In this document: piece by piece, positions 49,077 to 51,412 of the stretch
Numbering within the stretch: position 1 is the first letter of the stretch
Layout: every line of letters starts with the position of its first letter
NCBI RefSeq assembly: GCF_018618415.1
Contig: NZ_JACSMA010000003.1
Span: forward strand, 124,001 to 188,000
Direction of reading: 5' to 3'
DNA: 64,000 nt
Source of the DNA: Exiguobacterium sp. s146
GTDB lineage: Bacteria; Bacillota; Bacilli; Exiguobacteriales; Exiguobacteriaceae
Made by a program: the position numbers and the translations under genes
The notes under the pieces: model-generated
Seen by the model: only the letters and a program-made list of their open reading frames with translations
Databases searched by the model: none
Told to the model about the DNA's origin: nothing

Positions 49077-50987
49077 TCATTCGCCTCGTTCGGCTCGTTG
49101 TCGCGCCCGAATCTCTTTCTCGACGCGACGGAGCGCCTTCTTCGAACCGCGAGCAAAGTCGTGGGCTTCTTTCCGGTCCCGGTAATCGACGAACAAGGTC
49201 TCCAGGTCATAACCCGCCGGATACAAATCGAGTGCTTTCGCCTCGCGTCGGACCCGGCGGAGCGGATGGTCGCTGAACGTGCCGTCGACGTACACGGTGA
49301 CTTGACGCAACGATTCGTCCATCGCGTAGACGAGACCGACTTGATTCGTCTCGAGCAGGCGGACCCTGTCGCCTTTATATAGAACTTGATCTGGTTCGAC
49401 GACTGGTCGGACGACGTCTTGCGTCAGCCGTGATAAATCGAGGAGCGACTGGTCGTACGTCTTGTCATGCATATAACGCGATGCCTGCTTTAAGATTTTC
49501 TCGGGCAACTTCATTTTCCGGGCAATGAATAACGCGTTGCTGTCGCCGGACTGTCCAATCAATAACCGATATTTCGGTTCGAGAGTGTCCGGGTCGAACT
49601 GCATGGCCGCGTTCATGAAGTCTGGATGCGACTCCGAATACGCCTTGATTTCGCCGTAATGCGTCGAAGCGACGACAAGACAGCCGCGTTGGTACGCCTC
49701 TTCTAAAATCGCGATAGCGAGGGCTGCCCCTTCGTTCGGCTCGGTCCCGCTTCCAATCTCATCGAATAGGAGCAACGACCGTTTTCCGGCCTTCTGCATG
49801 ATGTTCGCGACGTTATGCATATGAGCCGAGAACGTGCTGAGCGCCGACCCCATATCCTGATTGTCCCCGATGTCGACGAACACGTCGTCAAACGTCGAGA
49901 TGTCCGTATCGGGGTGCGCCGGGATGTGGAGCCCGCTCATCGTCATCAAACTGAGCAGACCGATCGTCTTCAAGACGACCGTCTTCCCGCCGGCGTTCGG
50001 TCCGGTGATGATGAGTCCACGGTACGTCTCTCCGAGCGAGAAGTCGAGGGGGACCGCCCGTTCAAGGAGCGGATGGCGGACTTGTTTCAAACGAATTTTT
50101 CCGACCCCGTTCACGCGCGGGGCGATGCCGTCAATCGTTTGACTATATTTCCCTTTCGCGAACACCATGTCGTATTGGGCGATGACGTCGAGCGTCGCTT
50201 CAATCGTCGGTAACGCTTCCGCCACCATACCGGTGAGCGTGGCGAGCACTTGATAGATTTCGACCGCTTCCTCCGTCCGTTTGACGACAAGTTCCGCGTT
50301 CAGTTTCGCCACCGCCTCCGGTTCGATGAACACGGTCGTGCCGCGGCTCGACGTGTCGACGATCGCTCCGGCGACTTTGTGTTTATACGACGCTTTGATT
50401 GGAATCGTGAACCGGTCTTGTTTCTTCGTCACAAAGCCGTCTTGAATCGCTTCCCGGTTCGCGGCGCTCTTCAAGAACTTATTCAATCGCTCCTCAATCC
50501 GTCCCTCGAGAATGTCGATTTGTTTGCGTACCCGCTTCAATTCTTTGGACGCATCGTCGACGACACGTCCTCCTCGAATCGATTGGATAATCTCTTCCTC
50601 GATGCTGCGCCACTCGCTCATCTCGCCCGCATACTGAGAGAGAAGTGGTGCAAAGAACGCCTGCTCGGCCATGAAGCGCTTCAGCTTCCGGGCTCCCCGG
50701 AAAAATTCGGCGACGGCTTCGAGTTCACTTGCCTCGAGCTGGATGCCGCGGCTGATTTTACCGATGAGCGGTTCCATATCGGATACGCCGATAAAGGGGA
50801 CATGTGACGTCGCGTCGAGAATCGCGCGTGCTTCTGACGTCTCTTGGAGCCGTTTGTTCACCGTTTGCAGATGGCTCGTCGGACGCTGGCTTCGTAACAA
50901 GTTTCGCCCGAATCCGCTGATGCAGTAACGTTCAACGTGTTGAATCAAGTCGTTATATTGTAGTTTGTCTAATGTTTGTTCATTCAT
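49077..50987 (-). CDS. MutS2-family ATPase lacking the Smr nuclease domain
   Basis: 636 residues, against about 780 for full MutS2. The core is present: Walker A GPNAGGKT (329-336), Walker B LLLFDEIGSGTEP (405-417), STHYGEIK switch region and the MutS2-type clamp with coiled coil (KELKRVRKQIDILEGRIEERLNKF). After residue 550 comes a short KOW-like segment (LYKGDRVRLLETNQVGLVYAM) and a basic tail, but no Smr domain. MutS2 proteins act on DNA junctions or collided ribosomes; this paralogue would need another nuclease or none. ATG 50987 follows GGAGACTTCCATC. A 225-base structured leader precedes it. Confidence 0.87.
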   Translation of the reverse strand: MNEQTLDKLQYNDLIQHVERYCISGFGRNLLRSQRPTSHLQTVNKRLQETSEARAILDATSHVPFIGVSDMEPLIGKISRGIQLEASELEAVAEFFRGARKLKRFMAEQAFFAPLLSQYAGEMSEWRSIEEEIIQSIRGGRVVDDASKELKRVRKQIDILEGRIEERLNKFLKSAANREAIQDGFVTKKQDRFTIPIKASYKHKVAGAIVDTSSRGTTVFIEPEAVAKLNAELVVKRTEEAVEIYQVLATLTGMVAEALPTIEATLDVIAQYDMVFAKGKYSQTIDGIAPRVNGVGKIRLKQVRHPLLERAVPLDFSLGETYRGLIITGPNAGGKTVVLKTIGLLSLMTMSGLHIPAHPDTDISTFDDVFVDIGDNQDMGSALSTFSAHMHNVANIMQKAGKRSLLLFDEIGSGTEPNEGAALAIAILEEAYQRGCLVVASTHYGEIKAYSESHPDFMNAAMQFDPDTLEPKYRLLIGQSGDSNALFIARKMKLPEKILKQASRYMHDKTYDQSLLDLSRLTQDVVRPVVEPDQVLYKGDRVRLLETNQVGLVYAMDESLRQVTVYVDGTFSDHPLRRVRREAKALDLYPAGYDLETLFVDYRDRKEAHDFARGSKKALRRVEKEIRARQRAERGE

Positions 50988-51213
50988 GATGGAAGTCTCC
51001 TTAAAAATGGGATGGAGATACCGCGCAAACAAAAAGCGTCGGCCGATGACGACCAACGCAAAAAGACAGACCGGTGTCTGGCAGTTTATGAAGGGCGGTA
51101 TCTGTAACAGAACATGAAGGCATGACAAAAACGCGTGTCATCCAACATTTTTCAGTTCGTTAGGCAGATACGACCTCACTCATTAACATGCAACACCTTT
51201 CTCATTCAGTTTC
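50988..51213 (-). ncRNA. Candidate switching leader RNA of the MutS2 paralogue
   Basis: On the minus strand CAGATAC (51104-51098) can pair either with GTATCTG upstream (51171-51165) or, as part of AGATACCGC (51103-51095), with GCGGTATCT downstream (51024-51016). TCTCC (51018-51014), sharing bases with the latter, can also pair with the GGAGA ribosome-binding site (51000-50996). Inside the 9 bp stem are hairpins CAGAC/GTCTG and CGTC/GACG; TGACA/TGTCA lies before it. No known riboswitch class is recognised. Confidence 0.4.
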
Positions 51214-51331: not shown

Positions 51332-51412
51332 ACATGTGACTGATTCGATCAGGCATGGGGTAAGACGAAAGGCTCACGCCACCCGTCTATACTCCATGCC
51401 TGTTTTGTTTTT
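51332..51412 (+). promoter_or_regulatory. GlcT antiterminator (RAT) and terminator
   Basis: ACATGTGACTGATTCGATCA then GGCATGGGG (51332-51360) is nearly the ptsG RAT of Bacillus. It overlaps the left arm of a terminator (AGGCATGG ... CCATGCCT, 51351-51402) followed by TGTTTTGTTTTTT. Confidence 0.9.

Follow-up and report, generated by a model that had tools for sequence, protein, structure and literature searches.

The 64,000-nucleotide window analyzed here carries on its minus strand a gene for a MutS2 paralogue lacking the Smr domain. The RNA leader of this gene is probably a ribosome-mediated attenuator of the VmlR and ermC kind, acting on a target derived from mutS2. This reading is based on comparison and computation, which established the conservation of a short leader ORF, its pairing arms, covariation of the arms in relatives, a switch in predicted folding, and the kinship of the protein. 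From these we infer translation of the ORF, stalling on it, a drug trigger, and the activity of the protein. The leader family and its target are new, whereas the working principle is already known.

Layout of the leader

All elements of the leader are located on the minus strand. The promoter is composed of a -35 hexamer TTTACT (51248-51243), a spacer of 17 nt, and a -10 hexamer TATAGT (51225-51220), which place the expected RNA start near 51213. The -10 hexamer is kept in 19 of the 19 genomes of the genus, and the -35 hexamer reads TTTACT in 11, TTTACA in seven, and TGTACT in one of them. The spacer is always 17 nt long, yet it has 14 different sequences in these genomes. Since the hexamers and their spacing are kept amid varied spacers, transcription from about 51213 is likely, as is the transcription of the whole leader, which the earlier note had predicted from the same promoter.

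The leader ORF (51160..51183) has the codons ATG AGT GAG GTC GTA TCT GCC TAA and encodes the peptide MSEVVSA. It is preceded by a ribosome-binding site AAAGGTG (51194..51200), invariant in 19/19 genomes of the genus. An upstream in-frame ATG at 51189 would give the alternative peptide MLMSEVVSA. Arm B (GTATCTG, 51165..51171) forms codons 5-7 of MSEVVSA and pairs with arm C in the OFF state. Arm C (CAGATACCGC, 51095..51104), with the core CAGATAC at 51104-51098, is the partner of B in the OFF state or, in the ON state, of arm C' (GCGGTATCT, 51016..51024). The 3' flank of C', TCTCC (51014..51018), pairs with the GGAGA (51000-50996) of the main ribosome-binding site AAGGAGA (50996..51002) if C' is free. 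This site precedes the gene of the MutS2 paralogue (49077..50987, 636 aa).

A predicted hairpin, GGATGACA...TGTCATGCC (51119..51143), is located within the B:C stem. The 9-bp stem of C and C' encloses two hairpins. T1 (51060..51080) consists of 5 bp (51080-51067) followed by TCTTTTT and is a possible pause hairpin. T2 (51027..51059) is terminator-like, with 10 bp (51059-51036) followed by TTTTTGTTT. The earlier note had listed the promoter, the motifs of B, C, C', TCTCC, and GGAGA, and the pair of enclosed hairpins, and each is present where it had placed them. It left unmentioned the leader ORF around the upstream arm and the intrinsic-terminator candidate among the enclosed hairpins.

The whole leader folds better than its own shuffles (z -3.73; none of 200 as good). 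The three-way match of the arms is only mildly unusual in the single sequence, as it is equaled by two of 40 shuffles of the downstream leader, made by segment swaps meant to preserve dinucleotides. Applied to 108 loci, the same search outperformed every one of its 40 shuffles at only 17. Outside the leader, a conserved 13-nt inverted repeat (CAGGCATGGGGTA / TACTCCATGCCTG, 51350-51402) is positioned between two divergent genes. The repeat precedes a plus-strand PTS operon with a LicT-like antiterminator gene, and might be the terminator/antiterminator site of this operon.

Conservation in the genus and its sister genus

The leader was found in all 19 genomes of the genus, and E. alkaliphilum and E. 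qingdaonense are among the window's near relatives in sequence. The pairing arms are nearly invariant, with one C-to-T change in L010 and one A-to-G change in L012. Both changes retain G-U pairs, and none is compensated on both sides. Between ATG 51189 and the stop codon, only two positions vary among the 19 genomes, TTA/TTG before ATG 51183 and GTC/GTT, both of them synonymous. By DNA similarity, there is no further copy of the leader in the window's own genome.

The paralogue is present in one of 19 genomes of the sister genus (G019-G037), in comparison to 19 of 19 in the window's genus, which indicates loss or transfer. The single sister-genus paralogue, from G024, has 62% identity to that of the window, and its leader encodes MSGVVSA and has matching arms.

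The leader peptide across genera

Relatives were collected by a scan of 398 Bacilli genomes and of GTDB genomes; the latter confirmed at least 581 relatives, the best 80 of which were kept. The collection adds Smr-less paralogues from Bacillaceae, Paenibacillus, Clostridium, Clostridioides, Enterococcus, Jeotgalicoccus, and Aerococcus. The peptides encoded ahead of these paralogues are MSAVGSK, MSVVGIN, MSGVGIN, MSAVVSK, MSVLVSK, and their kin. The core seven-codon peptide is encoded at 75 of 113 examined subfamily-A loci. These comprise 24/24 loci of the Exiguobacterium type, four records of which may duplicate other genomes in the set, and 51/89 other loci. Variant peptides are found at 27 of the 113 loci (14 MSV, three MSVSI, ten others). 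No MS-type ORF was found at the remaining 11, one of which (L171) has just 58 nt of upstream DNA. The core-peptide pattern is absent upstream of 18/18 true mutS2 genes, which in this respect differ from the paralogue, and from all 1169 control windows (reverse-strand, 700-nt). The controls cover the core pattern, and variants such as MSV are short enough to occur by chance.

Among 35 distinct core ORFs, the start codon is ATG in 23, GTG in ten, and TTG in two, and the stop codon is TAG in 23 and TAA in 12. The serine at position 2 is encoded by AGT (20), AGC (6), TCG (6), TCT, TCC, and TCA (one each). Because this serine is written with all six of its codons, the peptide itself is under selection. 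Retention of serine across the divide between AGY and TCN codons would be hard to explain by RNA pairing. The leader, therefore, contains a short ORF with a ribosome-binding site that is, judged by its conservation, selected as a peptide.

Two groups of loci have other leader ORFs. In L150, L154, L156, L160, L164, and L185, which belong to Peptostreptococcaceae and some Clostridium, C. difficile included, longer candidate ORFs, such as that encoding MKKTNYKELGVVLLNK before its stop codon, replace the MS-type peptide. The subfamily-B loci (L096, L098-L108) encode Smr-less proteins that are 36-42% identical to that of the window, and carry a different leader ORF, ending in ..VLN or ..VLS, in 12/12 cases. 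Approximately 100-155 nt past this ORF, 12/12 leaders contain GTTAAGAAC, which is complementary to their GTTCTTAAC and absent upstream of 18/18 true mutS2 genes. In the subfamily-B leaders, nothing resembling a C' arm was noticed close to the main ribosome-binding site.

Folding of the leader under a ribosome footprint

The window RNA was folded from 51213, with the ribosome footprint modeled as spanning from -14 to +15 of the P-site. In the free leader, the predicted pairing probability is 0.99 for B:C, 0.00 for C:C', and 0.88 for C' on the ribosome-binding site. A footprint on codons 4-9, counted from ATG 51189, abolishes B:C (0), raises C:C' to 0.93-0.98, and lowers the pairing of C' with the ribosome-binding site to 0.04-0.08. 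The flip is robust to five start sites with the P-site on codon 1, 2 or 4 of MSEVVSA, and weaker on codon 7, where C:C' reaches 0.65-0.76. The main ribosome-binding site partly re-pairs elsewhere once C:C' has formed, and its mean unpaired probability increases from 0.02 to 0.2-0.3. T1 is predicted to form in the ribosome-masked state and not in the free state.

A 30-nt mask moved in 10-nt steps along L001 gives C:C' of 0.98 at offsets +5 to +25 from ATG 51183. Partial C:C' is seen at -5 (0.33), +65 (0.60), and +105 (0.32), and values are below 0.1 elsewhere; the masks at +65 and +105 reach into the opposite side of the B:C stem. One of the switching arms, B, is thus located beneath a ribosome positioned on the leader ORF.

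In all 19 leaders of the genus, B:C is at least 0.98 in the free state. When the P-site is placed on the start codon or on codon 2, C:C' is at least 0.5 in 17 of them each, and on codon 4 in 15; the exceptions at codon 2 are L007 (0.30) and L010 (0.20). With codon 2 in the P-site, C' covers the ribosome-binding site with a probability of less than 0.5 in 15/19 leaders. A ribosome at ATG 51189 brings C:C' to at least 0.5 in one of the 19 leaders, and ATG 51183 is therefore the preferred start. The flip was not seen in L051. Of 16 hand-picked leaders from several genera, nine attained a C:C' of 0.5 under at least one mask; these RNAs began 50 nt before the ORF and in Exiguobacterium included promoter bases, due to which L001 and L014 failed in this set. 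Across 82 leaders, the mask increases access to the ribosome-binding site by more than 0.1 in 28 and decreases it in seven.

Covariation of the pairing arms in relatives

A leader ORF was called at 108 loci, and 29 of these were aligned. The selection required a leader of the form MS..[GVA]S, a terminator motif of the GCTG type, and a distance of less than 420 nt, and it excluded Exiguobacterium. The C:C' helix has 16 pairs, with 85.9% of cells paired and five pairs double-changed. A long-range helix, D:D', joins the 5' end of the RNA with the stretch immediately before C' and has 14 pairs (90.3% paired, seven double-changed). The terminator is 98.5% paired. Together, C:C', D:D', and the terminator contain 16 double-changed pairs, compared to 9.2 +/- 1.9 in shuffles (0/500), and their covariation is 0.178 vs 0.099. 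When the partners are slid against each other as a control, pairing decreases from 89.6% to 37-46%. The OFF structure has 16 double-changed pairs vs 9.9 +/- 1.8 in shuffles (1/500), and for further pair types 45/500 shuffles are as good. B:C alone is weaker, with 73.9% of cells paired and two of seven pairs double-changed.

In Enterococcus, the arms are wholly replaced yet complementary (AGCCAAAGAAA/TTTCTTTGGCT and TTGAATAACC/GGTTATTCAA). Since the kinship of the sequences makes the shuffles lenient, the slid control and the replaced Enterococcus arms weigh more. The mutually exclusive helices are kept in the 29 relatives, B:C less strongly. The mutually exclusive pairings that the earlier note had proposed to hide and expose the ribosome-binding site are accordingly supported by folding, by conservation, and by covariation in other genera. 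Its demand for conserved and compensated arms is borne out by the 19/19 leaders of the genus and by compensatory changes in other genera, but not by any two-sided compensation within the genus.

The D:D' helix is 10-17 bp long in many leaders (L109:4592-5003 and other rows of alignment A2). It crosses C:C', which implies a pseudoknot or alternative structures. The window shows no clear D:D', and we do not propose the helix there.

Specificity of the leader

The search of Rfam 15 with curated scores, which the earlier note had proposed, gave no family match, neither for the window nor for nine related loci. A pattern derived from the relatives has matches in four of 398 genomes, always upstream of the paralogue gene. 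The covariance model R1 yields nine strong matches (E 3e-16 or better), all upstream of the paralogue gene. Seven of these are training sequences and R1 does not find the Exiguobacterium leaders, so that the model says little about the type of the window. A tenth match is weak (G255, L216, E 0.0069), with no ORF of at least 80 aa after it in the available piece. The 17 records from PLSDB plasmids all have less than 60% identity. Among the open-access papers listed on MutS2 in connection with leader peptides, attenuation, Smr and collided ribosomes, paralogues, resistance, and drug induction, no report of the leader was found. As a sequence family, the leader falls outside the known classes, as the earlier note had judged, but the working principle is known from VmlR, HflXr, and ermC.

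The MutS2 paralogue

The paralogue matches TIGR01069 with 589 bits (cut-off 400) over positions 1-517 of 790, which comprise the core and the ATPase. The Pfam scan identified MutS_V and a sub-threshold MutS_III and found no Smr domain; the protein ends at 636 aa. It is homologous to MutS2 of B. subtilis over residues 2-509 (E 2.5e-113; PDB 8qpp, 7qv3), but differs from that 785-aa protein in its length, the lack of Smr, and its placement in a separate clade. In a quick tree of 82 proteins, 18 true MutS2, nine subfamily-B, and 55 window-type proteins form separate branches (values of 100, 99, and 99, respectively). The Walker A, Walker B, and STFS motifs are invariant in 31 aligned members.

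The AlphaFold model has a mean pLDDT of 83.2 and a pTM of 0.67, and its best Foldseek matches are MutS2 structures, the collided-disome complex 7qv3 among them. Five strands are predicted at residues 541-583. The tail of the paralogue is homologous to that of subfamily B (99.7%), which has a weak match to the KOW region of MutS2 (71%, E 4.7e-6); the direct match of the paralogue tail to the KOW region is not significant. The reading frames of L092 (535 aa), L145 (553), and L178 (525) end early, before the putative KOW region, which may reflect gene decay or an error in sequencing.

According to PMC10897456, MutS2 has lately been shown to split stalled ribosomes, and the ATPase is the critical part of the B. 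subtilis protein, whereas the DLR motif of Smr is dispensable for splitting. The same source reports that loss of MutS2 makes B. subtilis sensitive to chloramphenicol, tetracycline, and erythromycin, and that loss of Smr results in reduced binding and an intermediate phenotype (PMC10897456). Since the loss of Smr weakens the binding of MutS2, the Smr-less paralogue may need another route to its target. The paralogue probably serves as an inducible ribosome splitter that descends from MutS2.

Proposed mechanism and comparison with known attenuators

Arm B is the coding sequence of a conserved ORF with a ribosome-binding site, and the sensor is therefore most likely the ribosome on this ORF. We hypothesize that, as long as no ribosome is stalled, B within the leader ORF pairs with C, so that C' remains available to block the ribosome-binding site of the paralogue (OFF). 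A ribosome halted on MSEVVSA, best on its first codons, would cover B, enabling C to pair with C' and removing the cover from the ribosome-binding site (ON), which is partly freed in the folding. The terminator-like hairpin probably supplies an extra transcriptional layer. The likely trigger would be ribosome arrest by ribosome-targeting antibiotics, perhaps by those that act at start codons. As the first codons are effective and some relatives encode only MSV, we would expect induction by agents that stop ribosomes on start codons or directly after them.

In ermC-type attenuators, a stall on the leader peptide replaces the pairings 1:2 and 3:4 with 2:3, which opens the ribosome-binding site. 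A stall on the leader peptide of the window would likewise shift the pairing and free the ribosome-binding site; the peptide, RNA sequence, and target are different, and the window adds the terminator-like hairpin.

PMC9226507 describes that induction of vmlR in B. subtilis needs initiation on a short ORF, that the inducers lincomycin and retapamulin arrest initiating ribosomes, and that the leader contains a pause hairpin, NusG-dependent pausing, and a modeled antiterminator. The vmlR leader has a very short ORF in its first stem, a pause hairpin, and an intrinsic terminator in the same order as in the window, and a hairpin over the main ribosome-binding site that is opened by alternative pairing. 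However, its peptide is MIN and its target an ABC-F ATPase, and the antiterminator modeled there was not found in the window. The likeness is one in the order of parts.

For hflXr (rli80) of Listeria, transcription attenuation and resistance were demonstrated, according to PMC6310831. All 19 genomes of the genus carry the paralogue together with an ordinary 784-aa MutS2. They share with hflXr a second copy of a putative ribosome splitter, besides the ordinary one, under a ribosome-dependent attenuator with a small ORF. By analogy, a target that keeps the ribosome-splitting core of MutS2 without Smr would follow a logic like that of the resistance gene HflXr. In contrast to MutS2-family proteins, HflX is an unrelated protein, and its 14-aa leader has an RLR motif that MSEVVSA lacks. 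While resistance and transcription attenuation were shown for hflXr, the system of the window is deduced from sequence and folding.

Alternative explanations

The attenuator might be mainly transcriptional, with T2 as the real gate and the cover by C' as a minor safeguard, which we consider somewhat unlikely and yet worth serious attention. A terminator-like hairpin with a T-run is present in 75/82 leaders, two of them very weak, and the ribosome mask lowers the terminator in L121 (0.79 to 0.02), L140 (0.98 to 0.44), and L142 (0.74 to 0.23). Many Bacillales leaders contain GGTATC, complementary to C, in the 5' half of the terminator, and C could therefore act as an antiterminator while the hairpin is still emerging. 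The vmlR and hflXr leaders also work chiefly by transcription (PMC9226507, PMC6310831). In the window, however, T2 is fully formed (1.0) in every state tested, and no matching complement of arm C was found within it, with 231/300 shuffles as good. An antiterminator match of arm C at or below 15/300 single-letter shuffles occurs in 16/68 leaders, the window not among them. The matching hairpin of G024 lacks a T-run, which suggests translation control as the constant part. T2 itself is a good terminator candidate.

A constitutive leader, whose hairpins set a low fixed expression without switching, would agree with the formation of T2 in all states of the window and with the modest predicted gain in access. 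It is nevertheless very unlikely, since B and C' match the same arm C, the C:C' helix and the cover are kept with compensation in relatives, and a conserved leader peptide would be purposeless. A ligand riboswitch or a protein-binding leader, the reading favored by the earlier note, would also be compatible with the mutually exclusive pairings and with the strong conservation of the RNA in the genus, the short ORF then being incidental. This reading gave way because the upstream arm lies within the coding sequence of a seven-codon ORF that is conserved and has a ribosome-binding site to itself. The peptide is kept across genera with synonymous changes and serine from both codon boxes, and Rfam is silent, so we set the riboswitch aside as highly improbable. 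Amino-acid attenuation, which responds to the slow reading of a certain codon, shares the anatomy of a leader peptide and an alternative stem. We give it almost no credence and reject it, as neither MSEVVSA nor its kin contain a run of one codon and the target is not a biosynthetic gene.

Implications

Returning to the ribosome-mediated attenuator, we tentatively suggest, with rather more reserve than for the leader itself, that the paralogues of Bacillus, Paenibacillus, Exiguobacterium, Clostridium, and Enterococcus constitute a widespread unnamed family of antibiotic-inducible MutS2-type splitters. If so, ribosomes arrested in the first codons of dedicated leader peptides would switch on each Smr-less paralogue and provide tolerance to drugs that arrest early translation. 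Such a family would correspond, on the MutS2 side, to HflXr and would comprise two subfamilies, with MSxV.. and ..VLN as their leader types. The leaders represent a set of very short candidate arrest-sensing peptides, three to seven codons long, and the paralogues are candidate intrinsic resistance genes. With the Smr-less copy, one could ask directly by genetics whether rescue can do without the Smr domain. An accessory Smr-less MutS2 under a stall-sensing leader would mean that Bacillota have made a rescue ATPase inducible, in parallel to HflXr.
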